NCBI GenBank assembly: GCA_012270995.1
Contig: JAAXHG010000015.1
Location: 60,945 to 124,944, forward strand
Source: Vicinamibacteraceae bacterium
GTDB lineage: Bacteria > Acidobacteriota > Thermoanaerobaculia > Multivoradales > Multivoraceae
Direction: 5' to 3'
Length of the DNA stretch: 64,000 bases
A program made the position numbers and the translations under genes. Below the pieces are notes generated by a model, which was not told the origin of the DNA, ran no database searches, and saw nothing but the letters and a program-made list of their open reading frames with translations. Of this stretch, positions 42,555 to 51,688 are shown in pieces. Every line of letters starts with the position of its first letter. The stretch's first letter is position 1.

Positions 42555-43895
42555 ATGAGCTTCAGAACGCGTGGCCGGACCCTGGGTCTGGGTTCGGCCC
42601 TGGGACTCACGTTGCTGCTTGCGCTCTTCGGCGCCGCCCCGGCGGCGGCGCAGGAAGGAGTCGATAGCGGCGACACGGCATGGATGCTGACCGCCAGCGC
42701 CCTGGTGTTGCTGATGACGCCGGGACTGGCCTTCTTCTACGGCGGGCTGGTCCGTCGCAAGAACATCCTCTCGATCCTCATGCAGTGCTTCCTCTGCATG
42801 GGACTCATGACGGTGCTCTGGGTCGTCGTCGGCTTCAGCCTCGCCTTCGGCTCGGACGCCCTCGGCGGCGTGATCGGCGGCGGCGACTACTTCCTGCTCG
42901 CCGGCCTGAGCCACGACGCCTGGGACGGGACGGGCATTCCCGGACCGCTCTTCATGATCTTCCAGGGCATGTTCGCCATCATCACGCCCGCCCTGATGGT
43001 CGGAGCCTTCGCCGAACGGATGAAGTTCAGCGCCATCTGCCTGTTCATGGGCGCCTGGCTGCTGGTCGTCTACGCCCCGATCTGTCACTGGGTCTGGGGC
43101 GGTTCGGAGGGCTTCTTCGGCCTCGGCGGTGACGGTGCGCTCGATTTCGCGGGCGGTACGGTCGTTCACATCAACGCTGGCGTTTCGGCCCTGGTGGCGG
43201 CGATCGTGCTCGGCCGGCGGCGTGACTATCCCGAACATGCATCTCCGCCGCACAACCTCCCCTTCGCGGTGCTCGGCACGGGCCTCCTCTGGTTTGGATG
43301 GTTCGGCTTCAACGCCGGCAGCGCCGTGGCAGCCAACGGTTCGGCCTCCAACGCCTTCGTCGTCACCCAGGTCGCTACCGCGACGGCGGCGGCCACCTGG
43401 GGCCTGATCGACTGGTTCAAGGAGTCGAAGCCCACGCTTCTGGGGGTCATCACGGGCGCTGTCGCCGGGCTCGTCGCGATTACGCCGGCCTGCGGCTCGG
43501 TCAGCGCGATCGGCGCGCTCGGCGTCGGCGCCGGCGCTTCCGTCTTCGCCTACCTTGCGGTCACCTGGCTGAAGTCGAAGCTCGGCTACGACGACTCGCT
43601 GGACGTCTTCGGCGTCCACGGTGTCGCCGGCATGTGGGGCGCGGTTGCGGCCGGTCTCTGGGCCACGGACGTGGTGCCCGGCAACGACGCGAACGGCCTC
43701 TTCTACGGCAACGCCGGACAGGTTGCGATTCAGCTCAAGGCGGTCGCCTACACCATCGTCTGGGCGGCGGTCGTGTCCTTCATCCTGCTCAAGATCGTCG
43801 ACCTGATCGTCGGCCTGCGCGTCAGCGACGACGAAGAGCGGATCGGTCTCGACCTCACCGACCACCGCGAAAACGCCTACACCCTGGTCGACTAG
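42555..43895 (+). CDS. amtB: ammonium transporter AmtB
   Basis: A 446-residue Amt/Rh channel that conducts ammonia across the inner membrane. ATG 42555 follows TTGGAGGGAC; the track start at 42423 is read-through. A signal peptide (LTLLLALFGAAPAAAQ) precedes eleven helices, as in proteobacterial AmtB. The signature TPGLAFFYGGLVRRKNIL is present, the pore twin-histidines are in GGTVVHINAGVS and FGVHGVAGMWG, and a cytoplasmic C-tail (DLTDHRENAYTLVD) can bind PII. The PII gene follows after 18 nt, the classical amtB-glnK pairing in which PII blocks the channel when nitrogen is plentiful. Confidence 0.95.
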   Translation: MSFRTRGRTLGLGSALGLTLLLALFGAAPAAAQEGVDSGDTAWMLTASALVLLMTPGLAFFYGGLVRRKNILSILMQCFLCMGLMTVLWVVVGFSLAFGSDALGGVIGGGDYFLLAGLSHDAWDGTGIPGPLFMIFQGMFAIITPALMVGAFAERMKFSAICLFMGAWLLVVYAPICHWVWGGSEGFFGLGGDGALDFAGGTVVHINAGVSALVAAIVLGRRRDYPEHASPPHNLPFAVLGTGLLWFGWFGFNAGSAVAANGSASNAFVVTQVATATAAATWGLIDWFKESKPTLLGVITGAVAGLVAITPACGSVSAIGALGVGAGASVFAYLAVTWLKSKLGYDDSLDVFGVHGVAGMWGAVAAGLWATDVVPGNDANGLFYGNAGQVAIQLKAVAYTIVWAAVVSFILLKIVDLIVGLRVSDDEERIGLDLTDHRENAYTLVD

Positions 43896-43913: not shown

Positions 43914-44255
43914 ATGAAGTACATCGTGGCAATCGTTCAGCCCGACCGGATGCAGGAGGTTCTCGACCTCCTGGAACAGAAGGAGATTCATCTGCTGACG
44001 GTCTCCAACGTGATGGGGCGTGGCCGCCAGCGGGGGGTCTCCGAGGTCTACCGCGGTCACAAGGAGGCGGGCGCCCTGCTGCGCAAGCTGAAAATCGAAA
44101 TCGCGGTGAACGACGACTACGTCGACATCGTGATCGACGCGATCACGCAGGGCGCTCAGACCGGCCGGGTCGGCGACGGGAAGATCTTCATCCTGCCGCT
44201 CGAAGAGACGATCCGCATCCGAACCGGCGAGACGGGAAACGTCGCGATCGGGTGA
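43914..44255 (+). CDS. PII signal-transduction protein (GlnB/GlnK family), Tyr51 replaced
   Basis: A 113-residue PII protein. It aligns without gaps to E. coli GlnB over the first 60 residues: the T loop GRGRQRGVSEVYRGHKEAG keeps Tyr46 but has Glu at position 51 where GlnB has the uridylylated Tyr. The B and C loops (TGRVGDGKIFILPLEETIRIRTGE) that bind ATP and 2-oxoglutarate are intact. It should therefore sense ATP/ADP and 2-oxoglutarate but cannot be uridylylated at the usual residue. It follows amtB by 18 nt with AAGGAGGA as ribosome-binding site and is convergent to glnE. Confidence 0.95.
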   Translation: MKYIVAIVQPDRMQEVLDLLEQKEIHLLTVSNVMGRGRQRGVSEVYRGHKEAGALLRKLKIEIAVNDDYVDIVIDAITQGAQTGRVGDGKIFILPLEETIRIRTGETGNVAIG

Positions 44256-44345: not shown

Positions 44346-47300
44346 TCAGTTGACCTGGTCGTCGAAGAGGCGCTGAAGGGCCGCCATCCGCTCCGCGATC
44401 CGGTCCCAGGCGCCATCCTCGTCCGGCAGTTGGCCAAGGCTGTGCAGCCGGCGCGCAAGGAAGCGGAACTCCCTCGTATCCGCCGGGGGAATCACGAGGT
44501 CCTTGCTGTGCCCGCGGACGATCCGCAGGCAGTTGATCACGGCCCGCAACAGCCGGTAACCCTGCTCCACCTGTTCGAACTCGTCGGCCGACAGGTGGCC
44601 GCGCTCGTGGAGCGCGTGGACCGCGTCGAGGGTGTTCGTCTGGCGCACTTCCGGGTCGCCGGCGCCGGCCGCTATCTGCCGCACCTGGACGACGTACTCG
44701 GCGTCCAGAAGGCCGCCGGCGCTGAACTTCGCGTTCGTCGTGCCGCGGGCGACGAGTTCCGACCGCTGACGGTTCCTGAGATGCCGGATCCGCGCGACGT
44801 CGTGCGGACGTGGATCGAAAACGAACTCCTGGCGGTGCGCCTCGACGCGAGCGGCAAGATCCGGGTCGCCGGCCACGGTGCGTAACCGCACCAGCGCCTG
44901 ACGTTCGTACGGATCCGCCTCCCCGTCGACGCTGTAGTACGAGACAAAGCGCTGAAACGAGGCGGCAAGCGGCGACGACGCACCGCCCGGCCGCAGCCGC
45001 CAGTCGAGTTCGAAGATTCCGTCGCGCTTGGCCCGGATCAGCCGCGCCAGCCGCTGCGCCGCCCGCTCGTAGAACTCACCCGCCTGGGCCCGCCGGGACC
45101 GTTCGGCGTCCCAGACGAACATCAACTCGATGTCCGACGCGTACCCCAGATCGCGTCCGCCCCACTTGCCGAGCGCGCACAGGCACCAGACTCCAGGCTC
45201 CGCCCCGTCGCCGGCCGTCTCGCCGACGGCTTCGGTCGCCGCCCGCGCGAGTACGACATCGGAAAGCGTCGAGAGTTCTTCGCCGAAATCGCTGAAGCGC
45301 TCGATGCGTCGCGTCAGGTGCCGCATGTCGATACGCCCGATCTCATCGTCCTTGAATCGGTTGAGGGCCTCGTCCGGCGCCTCCTGTGCTTCCAGCGCGG
45401 CTTCGAGGCGTCGCTCGAGGTCCTTCCGTCCGGCACCCAGGTCGAGGTCAGCGATGCCTTCGAGCAACGGCATCAGGTTCTCGTGCTGGCGCCGCAGGAA
45501 CTCCTCCCAGAGATACGTGCCGGCCCCCAGTACGCGCGCCAGTTCGTCGAGTGACGACGCCAGGGCCTGCGTCGGATCAGCAACCTGCTTGCAGGCCGCG
45601 TCGATCAGCGCCCCGAACTGCCGCAGGGCGAGTTGCGGGTTCGGCGCCACCGCCAGCCGCCGCGCGAACTGCTTCATCAGCGTCACCGTGAGTCGGAGAT
45701 GGTCGACGCCGATGCGGTCCTCGATCTTCCCGCCGCTCCGCGTGGTGACGAACAGGCGGTCGCGGACCTCGCCTTCAACCGTGTCGAACTCCACCTTGTC
45801 GATCCAGTAGTCGCGGGTCGAGAGAACGTTGGCGAACTCGAACAGGAACATGAAGCTGTCAGGGCTTCGGATCTCGAGGATCGTGCAGTGCTCGTCGGAC
45901 TCGTTGTCGACCGAAATCGAAATGGGAGGCATGACCTGTTCCGCATCGACGCCCGGATCGGTCACGCGGGCGGCCTCGATCACGCGCAGCGTCAGTTCCT
46001 CGTTGGCGCGCTGCGCGTCACCCTCGGCCAGCATGCCCAGAAGCCGGCTCAGGTCCCGCTCGAAATCCCTCCACGAGAAGACGCGGGAAGCGTGGACCGG
46101 CGCCGGCTGGACGTCGGCGGAGTACACGATGCGCGTGGGGCCGGGAGTCGATGGCCGCGACTTCCGGTCCTTGCGGCGACGCTGGCGGCCGCGCCGGCCA
46201 AGCGTCCGCGACGAAGGACGCCGGCCGGCCCTCCCGGGCCGCCGGTAGAACTCCATGTCCCCCGTGTCCTGGTAGGTGTAGGAACTGCCGCTCAGGATCG
46301 ACTGACCGTAGGCCGCCAGCAGGCCGCAGATCTTGGCGAACTCTCCCTGGTAGTCGTTGGCGACCACCGTCACGCGGCGAGTCGGGCCGACGTGCCGCAC
46401 GTCGACCCTGCACAGGCGCTCGCCGTCGAGTTCGTGGATCAGCTCGACGTGGCGCGCCACCTCCTCCACCGGGTGAGCGAGGAAGTAGGCGCTCTCGAGG
46501 CGCCGGAAGTGCTCATCGATGAGTTCCGCCGGCAGGTCCGGACAGCGTTCCCGCACCTGGTGCTTGCGTTCCAGGAAGTCGATCGTGTCGTCGAAGAACT
46601 CGCCGAAGATGCGGCGCACCTCGGCCGCCGTCTCCTCGTAGCGTTCGGCCAGGTAGAGCGTGCCCACCGGCTGGCCCAGGGCGAAGGCGACCCGCCACTC
46701 GAACGTCGCCCACTGCCTGGGATCGCGCGGAAGCTGGCGTACCGGCAGATCGCGCTCCAACTGCAGCACGTGCTCGACGACCCGCAGGAAGATGTAGGCC
46801 TCGCGCAACCGGTCGTACTCTTCCGGCGTGATCACGCGGTGCGCCCGCAACCGGGACATGGCCCGCAGCGTGTTCGGCGAGCGCAGGCTCTTGTTGGAGG
46901 CGCCGTGGTAGAGCTGCAGCAACTGGACGATGAACTCGATGTCGCGGATGCTGCCGGCGCCGAGCTTCACGTTGCCGACTTCCGTGCCCTTGGAACGGAG
47001 CGACTTCTCGATCATCTGCTTCATCTCGAAGACTTCGCGCAGCAGGGTCTCGGGCGGTCGATCGGGGTCGAAAACGAAACGCCGCGTGCCATCGATCAGC
47101 GCCTTGGCCGCGGCCGCGTCGCCGCCGGCAAAGCGCGCCTTGATCAGCGCCTGGAACGTCCAGTTCATGCCGTAGCGCTCGTAGAAGCGGAGGTACTGCC
47201 CCACCGTCCGCACCAGGGGGCCCATCTTCCCCTCGGGGCGCAGGCGCATGTCCACGCGGAAGACGAAACCGTCGCCCGTGTTGTCGGAGATCAGGCGAAT

Positions 47301-47843
47301 GAACTGCGGCGCCTGCCGCTGCAACCGGTGCAGGGCCTCCTGGTCGACGTCGTCCGAGGCCACGAACAGGGCGTCGATGTCCGAGCTGTAGTTGACCTCC
47401 AGGCCGCCCCACTTGCCCATCGCGATCACCGCGAACGGTTCCTTGTCCAGGCCTGTCGCATCGAGCGCCCGCTGAACGCAGACATCCGCCACCTGGGAGA
47501 TCTTCTGTGTCGTCGCGGCGAAGTCGTCGAGGCCGCTGAAGTCGGCGACCGCGACCCGGATCAGTTCCCGGTAGCGCAGGACGCGGAGCCAGCGGCGAAT
47601 GTCCTCGTCCGGCGCCGGCCGGAGCGCCGCCATGCGCTCGCGCTGCTCGTCCACCGACTCCTGCTCGACGGGAAAGAGCCCTTCATCCGCTTCCGGGTGC
47701 GCGTCGAGCCAGCGAGCGTAGGCCGGCGCGTACTCGCGCAGGATGTCGCGCTGCGCGAGCGCGAGGGTCTGCCGCGGATCCTCGGCGTCCTCGATGTCCA
47801 TGGCCGCGAAGGCCTCGATCGCTTGCTCAAGGCGCGAGTTCAC
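44346..47843 (-). CDS. glnE: glutamine synthetase adenylyltransferase/deadenylylase with ACT-like insertion
   Basis: A 1165-residue GlnE, about 200 longer than usual. GTG 47843 follows GAGGAGGAG, so it is preferred over the track start. The N-terminal nucleotidyltransferase half has GKWGGLEVNYSSDIDALFV near residue 150; the C-terminal half has GKWGGRDLGYASDIELMFV near 900. Between them lies a GlnD-like linker (YFLAHPVEEVARHVELI) and two ACT-like segments, RRVTVVANDYQGEFAKICGL near 485-525 and CTILEIRSPDSFMFLFEFAN near 650-700, separated by an Arg-rich stretch. It should add and remove AMP on glutamine synthetase; the ACT segments could bind glutamine. It is convergent with the PII gene. Confidence 0.92.
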   Translation of the reverse strand: MNSRLEQAIEAFAAMDIEDAEDPRQTLALAQRDILREYAPAYARWLDAHPEADEGLFPVEQESVDEQRERMAALRPAPDEDIRRWLRVLRYRELIRVAVADFSGLDDFAATTQKISQVADVCVQRALDATGLDKEPFAVIAMGKWGGLEVNYSSDIDALFVASDDVDQEALHRLQRQAPQFIRLISDNTGDGFVFRVDMRLRPEGKMGPLVRTVGQYLRFYERYGMNWTFQALIKARFAGGDAAAAKALIDGTRRFVFDPDRPPETLLREVFEMKQMIEKSLRSKGTEVGNVKLGAGSIRDIEFIVQLLQLYHGASNKSLRSPNTLRAMSRLRAHRVITPEEYDRLREAYIFLRVVEHVLQLERDLPVRQLPRDPRQWATFEWRVAFALGQPVGTLYLAERYEETAAEVRRIFGEFFDDTIDFLERKHQVRERCPDLPAELIDEHFRRLESAYFLAHPVEEVARHVELIHELDGERLCRVDVRHVGPTRRVTVVANDYQGEFAKICGLLAAYGQSILSGSSYTYQDTGDMEFYRRPGRAGRRPSSRTLGRRGRQRRRKDRKSRPSTPGPTRIVYSADVQPAPVHASRVFSWRDFERDLSRLLGMLAEGDAQRANEELTLRVIEAARVTDPGVDAEQVMPPISISVDNESDEHCTILEIRSPDSFMFLFEFANVLSTRDYWIDKVEFDTVEGEVRDRLFVTTRSGGKIEDRIGVDHLRLTVTLMKQFARRLAVAPNPQLALRQFGALIDAACKQVADPTQALASSLDELARVLGAGTYLWEEFLRRQHENLMPLLEGIADLDLGAGRKDLERRLEAALEAQEAPDEALNRFKDDEIGRIDMRHLTRRIERFSDFGEELSTLSDVVLARAATEAVGETAGDGAEPGVWCLCALGKWGGRDLGYASDIELMFVWDAERSRRAQAGEFYERAAQRLARLIRAKRDGIFELDWRLRPGGASSPLAASFQRFVSYYSVDGEADPYERQALVRLRTVAGDPDLAARVEAHRQEFVFDPRPHDVARIRHLRNRQRSELVARGTTNAKFSAGGLLDAEYVVQVRQIAAGAGDPEVRQTNTLDAVHALHERGHLSADEFEQVEQGYRLLRAVINCLRIVRGHSKDLVIPPADTREFRFLARRLHSLGQLPDEDGAWDRIAERMAALQRLFDDQVN

Positions 47844-47921
47844 GGCAACTCCTCCTCGTCGCTGGCCCACCGACAGCGGCGGACGGCGGAGAGAGGATGC
47901 TAACGGACGGCTCGGGGCGCC

Positions 47922-50900
47922 TCAGCCGACCGCCCAGCCCGCCGACAGCACCTCGGCCTGCTCCAGCACGGTCCGGGTCGCCTGCTCCTGCTTGTCGGGC
48001 GGGTAACCGTGCTTGCGCAGGATGCGCTTGACCAGAACGCGCAACTGCGCCCGCACGTTCTCGCGCAACGTCCAGTCGATCGTGACGTTCCGGCGAACGG
48101 TCTCGACAAGCTCGCGAGCGATATCCCGCAACGTCTCGTCGCCGAGCACCTGCACCGCGCTGTCGTTCGTCTCCAGGGCGTCGTAGAAGGCGAGTTCGTC
48201 GTCCGAGAGACCGAGCTCCTCGCCGCGGCGCTCCGCCTCTCGCAGGTCTCGCGCCAGACCGATCAGCTCCTGGATGACCTGAGCCGCTTCAATGGCCCGG
48301 TTCTGGTAGCGGCGAAGCGTCCGAGCGAGCATCTCCGAGAAGGTCCGCGCCTGAACCACGTTCTTCTTCCGCTTCGCGGCGAGCTCGCCCTTGAGCAGCT
48401 TCTGCAGTAGCTCGACCGCGAGATTGCGCCGTTTCATGCCCTGCACCTCGGACAGGAACTCCTCGGACAGGATCGAGATGTCGGGCTTCTCGAGGCCGGC
48501 CGCCGCGAAGACGTCGACCACTCCCTCCGGCGCCACGGCGCGCGAGACGATCTGCCGCAGGGCGTGGTCGAGTTCTTCTTGCGGCCGCGCATCGGACGCC
48601 GCGCGCTTCGCCAGCACCGAGCGGACGGCCTGGAAGAACTCCACGTCGTCGCGAATGCGGATCGCCTCGTCGTGGGGAACGGCGAGCGCAAACGCCTGGG
48701 TTAGTTCACGCACGGATCGGAGGCAACGCTCCTTCCCATCCTCCTGCGCCAGGACGTGCTCCTGGGCCGCCGGCAGCAAGCCAAGACGCTGGGCCGGCGC
48801 GCCGCCCGTCCACGCCGACCAGTCGAAGCCGTGGAACAAGGCGCAGCACACCTCGTGCTTCTCCAGCATGGCCCGCACTGCTTCCGCTTGGTCAACCGCG
48901 GCGCGGCCCGTGCCGCCGCTCTCGGTGTAAGTGGCCAGCGCGCGCTTGAGCTCGTGCGCCAGACCCAGGTAGTCGACGACCAGTCCTCCCGGCTTGTCCC
49001 GAAACACGCGGTTGACCCGCGCGATGGCCTGCATCAACCCATGGCCGCGCATCGGCTTGTCGAGGTACATCGTGTGCAGGCTCGGCGCGTCGAAGCCGGT
49101 CAGCCACATGTCGCGCACCAGGACCATCCGCAGCGGGTCGGACGGATCGCGGAACCGATTCGCCAACGCCTCTCGCCTCGGCTTGTTGCGGATGTGCGGC
49201 TGCCAATCGACCGGGTCGGACGCCGCGCCGGTCATCACGACCTTGAGACAGCCCCGCTCGTCCTCCGCGTGCTCCCACTCGGGCCGCAGCCGCGACAGCG
49301 CCGCGTGAAGATCGATGCAGATGCGCCGGCTCATGCAGACCACCATCGCCTTGCCCTCCATCGCCTCCAGGCGGCTCTCGAAGTGCGACACGATGTCTTC
49401 CGCGATGAGAGCCAGGCGGTCCTTGGCGCCCACTACGGCTTCGAGTTGCGCCCACTTCGTCTTCAGCTTCTCCTTCCGCTCGACCTCTTCGCCCTCGGTG
49501 ACCTCCTCGAATCCCGCATCCACGGCGGGCAGTTCTTCGTCGTCGAGCACCAGCCTGGCGAGACGGCTCTCGTAGTAGATCGGCACCGTCGCCTCGTCCT
49601 CGACCGAGCGCCGGATGTCGTAGACGCTGATGTAGTCGCCGAACACGTTCCGCGTGTTCGCGTCTTCCAGTTCGATCGGCGTGCCGGTGAAGCCGATGAA
49701 GGACGCGTTCGGCAGGGCGTCCCGCATGTGGCGGGCGTAGCCCTTGATGAACTCGTACTGGCTCCGGTGAGCCTCATCCGCGATGACGACGATGTTGCGC
49801 CGCTGGGAGAGCAACGGGTGCCGGTCGCCCTTCTGCTCCGGGAAGAACTTCTGGATGGTCGTGAACACGACGCCGCCGGCATCGACGGCAAGCCTGGAGC
49901 GGAGGTCGGCGCGGCCTGCCGCCTGGACTGGCGGCTGTCCAAGCAGATCGCGGCACCGGGAGAACGTCGCGAAGAGCTGATCGTCGAGATCGTTCCGGTC
50001 GGTGAGAACGACGACCGTGGGGTTCTCCATCGCCGGTTCGTGGACGATCCGGCCGGCGTAGAACGCCATCGTCAGGCTCTTGCCCGAACCCTGCGTGTGC
50101 CAGACGACACCGATCCGCCGGTCGCCGGGGTCCCCTCCCGGCACGCTGCCGGATGCGTAGCGCCCTCCCCCTTCCCGCAGGATCGAAGCGCCACTCCGAG
50201 GACGCCCGAGCGCCGCCGCGCGCAGCGTCTCCCTCACCGCGACCCGGACGGCATGGAACTGGTGGTAGCCCGCCATCTTCTTGACGAGCGCACCGCTGCC
50301 ATCGTCCTCCACGACCAGGAAGTCGCGCACGAGGGCCAGGAAGCGGCGCGGCTCGAACACGCCCTCGACGGCCACCTCCAACGCCGCCTGCCCGGCGGGT
50401 GCCAGTTCTTCGCCGCCGATCGTCCGCCACGGCTTGAACCACTCCCACCCGGCCGTGAGCGTGCCCAGCCTCGCCTCGACTCCATCCGACACGGCGAGCA
50501 CGGCATTGAACTCGAAGAGCGACGGGATCTCCGCCTTGTAGGTCTGAAGCTGCCGCCAGGCGCTGTACACCGTGGCGTCCTCGTCGGCCGGGTTCTTCAA
50601 CTCGACGACAGCGAGCGGCAGACCGTTCAAGAAGAGCACGATGTCCGGCCGGCGCTCGCGGCCGTCCTCCACCACCGTGAACTGGTTGACGGCAAGCCAG
50701 TCGTTGTTCGACGGCTCGCGGAAGTCGATCGGCCGCGCCTGGGCGCCCCGCACGCGGCCGGCGCCGTCCCGATACTCGACCGTGACGCCGCCGGTGCACA
50801 TCCGGTGAAGGGCCCGGTTCCGGGACTCCAGAGTCGAACCTTGCGGCCGCATGAGCCGCCGCGCCGCGTCTTCGAGCGCCGCGGCGGGCAGGTCCGCGTT

Positions 50901-51074
50901 GAGCCGCGCCAGCGCCTCGCGCAGCCGTCGCTCCAGCACCGCCGCGCCGTAGTGCCCGCGTTCCGCCGCTCGCCCTCCCGGGCCGATGTCCGGTCCGTGG
51001 GCGATCTCCCAGCCAAGGCCCTCCAGCCAGTCGAGGGCGGCGGCTTCGACTTCGGATTCGGTGACGCGAGTCAC
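47922..51074 (-). CDS. hsdR: type I restriction enzyme R subunit
   Basis: A 1050-residue motor-nuclease subunit. GTG 51074 overlaps the stop of the DUF4276 gene as GTGA; the track's start at 51341 runs into that gene. The N-terminal nuclease shows [21 protein letters not shown] (PD-ExK). The helicase has [18 protein letters not shown] near residue 330, [13 protein letters not shown] near 430, and [20 protein letters not shown]. The C-terminal helical domain ([21 protein letters not shown]) binds HsdM/S. It cuts DNA after translocation when sites are unmodified. It is the last gene of the composite operon. Confidence 0.94.
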
Positions 51075-51688
51075 GGGACGGACACTTCGCGAATCACGTC
51101 CAGGAAGACTCCGAAGCTGTGCGATCGATTCCGCTCGGGAACGAGGTGAGCCGCAATCGCGCGGGCTGCCTCTCTCTTGCGGACACCCGTGCTGAAGTAC
51201 CCATGCCGCTTCAGGATCCGCTCGAACACCTCCCAAGTCCGGGGAATGCCGTCGGGATTGCGATAGGGGCTCTGTTTCGGCGTGGCGGCCGACAGACGCG
51301 GATACGCGCCGCGGACCGCCTGCCAGTCGCCGAAGAACCACGCCTCAAGTTCCTGTACGACGACACGATTCACCAACTGCCAGGGTTCCCCGGACGCCAT
51401 GCTCCGGGTACGCAAGCCCGCGCGGGACGCCGCCGCCTCCAACTCCGCCTTGAGCGCGAGGCAATCGTCCTCGTCGCGATCCACCATGACCACGATGCGC
51501 CAGTCGGCCGGCAGCCACTTCGAGTAACCGCGCAGCCGCTCATCGAGCTTCGAGCGCAGGTCTGGTTTGCCGCGAAAGGAGTGGATGGCGAACGTGCGGT
51601 CGCGCGGCAGCAGTCGAGGCAAAAGCTCTCGAAGGAACTCCTCCATTGACGGTTCTTCGACCAGGAACTCCAGGTGGCGAACCGTCAT
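51071..51688 (-). CDS. DUF4276 (TOPRIM-like) protein paired with AAA ATPase
   Basis: A 205-residue protein. An N-terminal glutamate motif ([17 protein letters not shown]) and a downstream DxD cluster ([15 protein letters not shown]) match the TOPRIM-like pattern of DUF4276. The conserved [11 protein letters not shown] and [10 protein letters not shown] follow. Such proteins are commonly the second gene after an AAA ATPase, as here, and resemble nuclease partners in OLD- or PARIS-type defence. It overlaps the ATPase gene upstream (ATGA) and hsdR downstream (GTGA). A nuclease role is inference. Confidence 0.82.

Follow-up and report, generated by a model that had tools for sequence, protein, structure and literature searches.

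The textbook example of metabolic control by covalent modification is the bicyclic cascade formed by GlnD, PII and GlnE; in E. coli, glutamine is read by the ACT pair of GlnD and the signal passes through PII-UMP to GlnE. The window analysed here (a whole stretch of 64,000 nucleotides from a Vicinamibacteraceae bacterium) encodes a PII protein without the tyrosine that this cascade modifies. The 113-residue product matched the Pfam P-II family over the whole profile (PF00543, E = 3e-25; 88.9 bits against a cut-off of 25). When aligned with E. coli GlnB, taken from the K-12 genome (NC_000913.3), 53 of 112 residues were identical and no gaps were required. The two proteins agreed at Q39, Y46, R47, G48, K58, E62, G84, G87-D88-G89-K90, R101 and R103, and the effector-site residues (Q39, K58, the B loop, R101 and R103) were therefore among those kept. 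They differed at residue 51, where the uridylylatable tyrosine of E. coli-type GlnB and GlnK was replaced by Glu, at residue 50, which was Lys, and at residue 85, which was Arg rather than Lys. This confirmed the initial, sequence-only reading of the locus, which had reported Glu at 51 beside a conserved Tyr46, B loop and C loop. Since Glu51 was present in all 17 of the closest relatives (L008-L024), it is no sequencing error.

The PII gene begins 18 bases beyond the end of amtB, an order conserved in the same 17 relatives, and is convergent with a glnE gene that carries an insertion of tandem ACT domains (hereafter GlnE-ACT); the three genes were adjacent in every relative with sufficiently long sequence (Table 1). 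Scans for terminators, promoters and Rfam families around the locus produced no matches. A type I restriction HsdR-like gene (47922-51341, minus strand) lies directly upstream of glnE-ACT. The P-II domain, the effector-site residues, the T-loop sequence Tyr46-Arg47-Gly48 and the adjoining amtB are all features of amtB-linked GlnK and GlnB proteins; the window PII departs from these in having Glu51 for Tyr51 and in belonging to a genome without GlnD, and both departures are common to a large existing clade.

Table 1. Features of the locus, and related free-standing proteins in other genomes
Feature	Location	Strand	Basis or remark
amtB, ammonium channel, signal peptide-like N terminus	42555..43895	+	PF00909 E = 4e-124; TIGR00836 above cut-off
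PII (GlnK-type), Glu at 51	43914..44255	+	sole PII copy in genome
Glu51 codon (E. coli Tyr51 position)	44064..44066	+	ungapped alignment with E. coli GlnB
GlnE-ACT, glutamine synthetase adenylyl-removing/adenylyltransferase with GlnD-type tandem ACT	44349..47870	-	PF03710 x2, PF08335 x2, NCBIfam GlnE and GlnD models
N-terminal nucleotidyltransferase half (AR), SSDID motif intact	46587..47726	-	profile scores and tree
GlnD-like helical lead-in and ACT1	46236..46568	-	NF003467 positions 676-780; HHalign, collinear
Basic linker between ACT domains, variable; length differs among relatives	46101..46235	-	dN/dS
GlnD-like ACT2	45711..45935	-	TIGR01693 positions 758-836; HHalign
C-terminal nucleotidyltransferase half (AT)	44349..45638	-	tree of halves
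AT catalytic motif, Asp913-Ile-Glu915 (E. coli Asp701-Leu-Asp703)	45126..45134	-	Glu in 16/16 genus members
Free-standing GlnD-type ACT proteins	G061:C91:79045-79704; G136:C152:78039-78710; G008:C95:3669-4382; G057:C82:59666-60394

The host genome, with a size of 5.27 Mb and a completeness of 96.5%, contained a single PF00543 match, the Glu51 protein itself. A TIGR01693 search of the same genome found no GlnD; the only matches were one fragment of a CCA-type nucleotidyltransferase together with fragments of the adjoining GlnE. This absence applies to draft genomes, including same-genus drafts in three contigs (G098) and about 20 contigs (G081 and G116). The sequence-only reading had held that the GlnD switch on Tyr51 cannot act here, and this stood, there being neither a Tyr51 nor, when glnD was sought elsewhere in the genome, any GlnD; a second PII with Tyr51, accompanied by glnD, which would have made the Glu51 protein a dedicated paralogue, did not emerge. 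The genome has one clear type I GlnA and one GlnE, and its only close GlnA retains the adenylylation tyrosine (IYDLSPEE). That tyrosine was present in 39 of 39 GlnAs read from GlnE-positive genomes, while two of 11 GlnAs from GlnE-negative genomes had Phe at the site. The GlnA of the window's genus (L006; G000:C117) shared 59-66% identity with its best matches among the GlnAs from other families, and one sister-genus genome (G140) had no close GlnA; a joint gain of glnA and glnE may therefore have taken place.

A survey of 149 Acidobacteriota genomes placed the loss of Tyr51 in context. GlnD was present in 34, and each of the 33 GlnD-positive genomes whose PIIs were read had a Tyr51 PII. Among 47 PIIs from GlnD-less genomes only one aligned a Tyr at position 51, and this protein had no YRG motif; the remainder had V, L, I, M, G, D, E, A, P, R or a gap. 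Tyr51 and GlnD have thus been gained or lost together in the sampled Acidobacteriota, and the variety of residues at 51 indicates that loss of the tyrosine follows loss of GlnD and does not reflect selection for an acidic residue. A review describes Tyr51 modification as restricted, and glnD as sporadic, outside the proteobacteria and actinobacteria (PMC4285133). PIIs with Glu51 (YRGHKEAG and similar) occurred in Thermoanaerobaculia, Omnitrophota, Phycisphaerae, Lentisphaerae and other groups, and two changes on the PII tree sufficed to account for the 79 Glu51 sequences. In 77 of 78 loci (L008-L085, a few of which encode PIIs without Glu51) amtB adjoined the PII gene, the exception lying at a contig end; at both Tyr51 loci (L086 and L087) it was glnD that adjoined PII. 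Glu51 is therefore a shared trait of one large, amtB-linked PII clade spanning several phyla, and is ordinary for its lineage. The idea that it is a rare and special residue was rejected on these grounds, since alignment with other Acidobacteriota PIIs placed Tyr51 only where GlnD occurs and revealed many other residues at the position where GlnD is absent.

The neighbouring GlnE-ACT, a more unusual feature that the sequence-only reading had overlooked, has the same AR-AT order of halves as E. coli GlnE (b3053): two GlnE nucleotidyltransferase domains (PF03710), each followed by a helical GlnD_UR_UTase domain (PF08335). It differs from the E. coli enzyme in a stretch of approximately 300 extra residues between the halves, within which ACT1 and ACT2 lie, and in a D-to-E replacement in the AT motif. 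The protein is 1174 residues long, whereas E. coli GlnE has 946 and the GlnEs of 22 other Acidobacteriota range from 893 to 1121; its exact start codon is uncertain, and its assignment also drew on an alignment of 16 proteins from the genus. In most carrier genomes, including assemblies of one and three contigs, it is a single open frame of 1169-1242 residues.

The insert alone (residues 430-745) matched GlnD models only, at the positions of ACT1 and ACT2, in eight of eight relatives tested (best E = 1.7e-16). Compared by HHalign with an alignment of 12 GlnDs, it scored a probability of 99.2% (E = 2.4e-19) over 226 columns, and the match was collinear throughout, starting in the helices that precede ACT1 and finishing where ACT2 ends. 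On the strength of these profile comparisons, the insert between the GlnE halves is identified as the C-terminal end of GlnD, with lead-in, ACT1 and ACT2 in their original order. No Pfam ACT model matched the insert, and its identification as ACT domains rests on the GlnD models and HHalign. ACT1 keeps the D-x-x-G ligand loop (DYQG); the hallmark pattern of ACT2 was recognisable (ILEIRSPD...VLSTRDYWIDKVEFDT...RDRLFVTTRSGGKIED), and its ligand loop retains the Asp but has lost the Gly (PDSFMF). The whole protein is not a GlnD: it scored 70.8 bits against TIGR01693, where the cut-off is 519.4, its nucleotidyltransferase halves are GlnE-type, and a Pfam/NCBIfam scan found no HD domain, such that the UTase-HD-ACT-ACT order of GlnD is not reproduced. 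PDB sequences searched with the insert profile yielded no match. AlphaFold gave poor models both for the insert (pLDDT 53) and for the whole protein (pLDDT 49); the order of helices and strands in the low-confidence model of the insert was compatible with ACT domains, although no conclusion was drawn from it. A literature search, whose coverage mostly excluded subscription journals, returned no paper containing both 'GlnE' and 'ACT domain'.

The identity of the two catalytic halves was established from profile scores and a tree of 56 GlnE halves. The N-terminal half scored 314 bits with an AR profile and 224 with an AT profile, and fell among AR halves in the tree. The C-terminal half scored slightly better with the AR than the AT profile (219 versus 196 bits), and profile scores and BLAST had led to its consideration as a second AR half (i.e., AR-ACT-ACT-AR); this was rejected by the tree, where it stood with all AT halves on one side of a branch supported at 100/98. 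The catalytic motif reads SDID in the AR half and SDIE in the AT half, whereas the 23 other GlnEs in the alignment (46 halves) all had Asp at the position of Glu915, in the AR as in the AT half. Comparison of glnE-ACT from the window with six relatives gave dN/dS values of 0.05-0.19 for the lead-in and ACT1, 0-0.08 for ACT2 and 0.08-0.17 for the catalytic halves (AT half, 0.09-0.17), against 0.33-0.96 for the linker between the ACT domains. Both ACT domains (dN/dS 0-0.19) are therefore under purifying selection.

The distribution of the fusion was surveyed with the insert profile in the 149 phylum genomes and in 72 genomes of the order. In the phylum it was found in seven genomes, all of them from the window's genus, and the 11 other matches were genuine GlnDs or a GlnD fragment. 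In the order it was present throughout the genus (21 of 21 genomes) and absent from the 51 other genomes, which represent 27 genera. Other genera of the class had no GlnE among the genomes sampled. Outside the genus, 24 GlnE-positive Acidobacteriota had neither GlnD nor an ACT insert (e.g., G018, G024, G036, G047, G083 and G125), which shows that GlnE does not need the insert and that the fusion is one solution rather than a necessity. Both halves of GlnE-ACT paired with E. coli and not with Acidobacteriota GlnEs (AR, 97/94; AT, 90/57), which hints that glnE-ACT was acquired from another phylum; with two long-branch halves, and E. coli as the only species from another phylum in this tree, the basis for the suggestion is thin. 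In other Acidobacteriota there are free-standing proteins, 266-380 residues long, whose match to GlnD was confined to its tandem ACT end, and these are possibly glutamine sensors without an enzyme.

According to a review (PMC12702975), the two ACT domains at the C terminus of GlnD mediate its regulation by glutamine. The absence of GlnD, the single Glu51 PII, the intact target tyrosine of GlnA and the genus-wide fusion all favour a shortened cascade, in which GlnE-ACT senses glutamine itself and unmodified PII serves AmtB as a sensor of 2-oxoglutarate and ATP; this was considered the probable arrangement. With GlnD and the Tyr51 switch absent from the genus, the sole PII would be produced with AmtB and stay unmodified, responding only to 2-oxoglutarate and ATP/ADP; it would close AmtB under plentiful nitrogen, as PII usually does, and would perhaps act on GlnE too. 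The glutamine signal would be read inside GlnE by ACT1 and ACT2, placed between the AR and AT halves, and binding of glutamine to the pair would decide which half acts on glutamine synthetase. There is about an even chance that domain transfer reduced two cycles to one: GlnE would have acquired the glutamine sensor of GlnD, adenylylation of glutamine synthetase would come under direct control by glutamine, and PII, left unmodified, would be free to report 2-oxoglutarate and energy to AmtB. The 24 GlnD-less Acidobacteriota whose GlnE has no insert, and the Glu in the AT motif, count against the shortened cascade. Other observations temper the role given to glutamine. ACT2 has lost the loop glycine that ACT1 keeps, and so its ligand could differ, or the domain could be structural. 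E. coli GlnE itself has been reported to respond to glutamine, and what was gained by fusion of the ACT pair may therefore be of degree.

Three other explanations were weighed against the shortened cascade. The sequence-only reading had suggested that Glu51 might imitate a modified state; as a mimic of uridylylated Tyr51 it would lock PII in a 'nitrogen-poor' state. The residue is indeed acidic and conserved throughout a large clade, but the clade shows strict linkage to amtB. Since PII is off AmtB when uridylylated, a permanent mimic of that form makes little sense in a protein so placed. Furthermore, V, L, I, M or G stands at position 51 in other PIIs from GlnD-less genomes, the adjacent residue 50 is Lys or Arg, and a single Glu is a poor substitute for bulky UMP. 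E. coli GlnK with the Y51A substitution still associates with and is released from AmtB normally (PMC4274968). Mimicry was not supported, and is regarded as very improbable.

A stronger competitor, though still an unlikely one, has unmodified PII alone regulating GlnE-ACT, with the ACT pair either sensing another amino acid or serving only for spacing or dimerisation. Many amino acids are known as ligands of ACT domains, the loss of the glycine in ACT2 could be read in this way, and GlnE occurs without ACT domains in other GlnD-less genomes; yet the module is specifically the tail of GlnD with its lead-in, and not a generic ACT domain of the kind that Pfam models would detect, and both ACT cores are conserved above the linker. 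The D-to-E replacement could also mean that GlnE-ACT is mainly adenylyl-removing, or is a degenerate GlnE with a weak AT half. Glu915 is present in all genus members aligned, in contrast to the Asp of all other GlnE halves examined, and the half's slight preference for the AR profile points the same way; its firm position among AT halves and its low dN/dS argue against degeneration, and the nucleotidyltransferase superfamily motif, Dx[DE], tolerates Glu at the second acidic position. Glu915 is thus compatible with activity, without being proof of it, and this third explanation is considered improbable.

The ACT module of GlnE-ACT has a partial parallel in the plant ACR proteins, where GlnD-like ACT domains have become detached from GlnD and are tied to nitrogen metabolism (PMC3173338, PMC12702975); the ACT repeats are free-standing in those proteins and inserted in an enzyme in GlnE-ACT. 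A PII without Tyr51 need not be odd in itself, given that Tyr51 accompanies GlnD in Acidobacteriota. A natural cascade that lacks the first cycle and has the sensor fused into the second enzyme would test the purpose of the extra cycle, and the same fusion would test where glutamine acts in GlnE.
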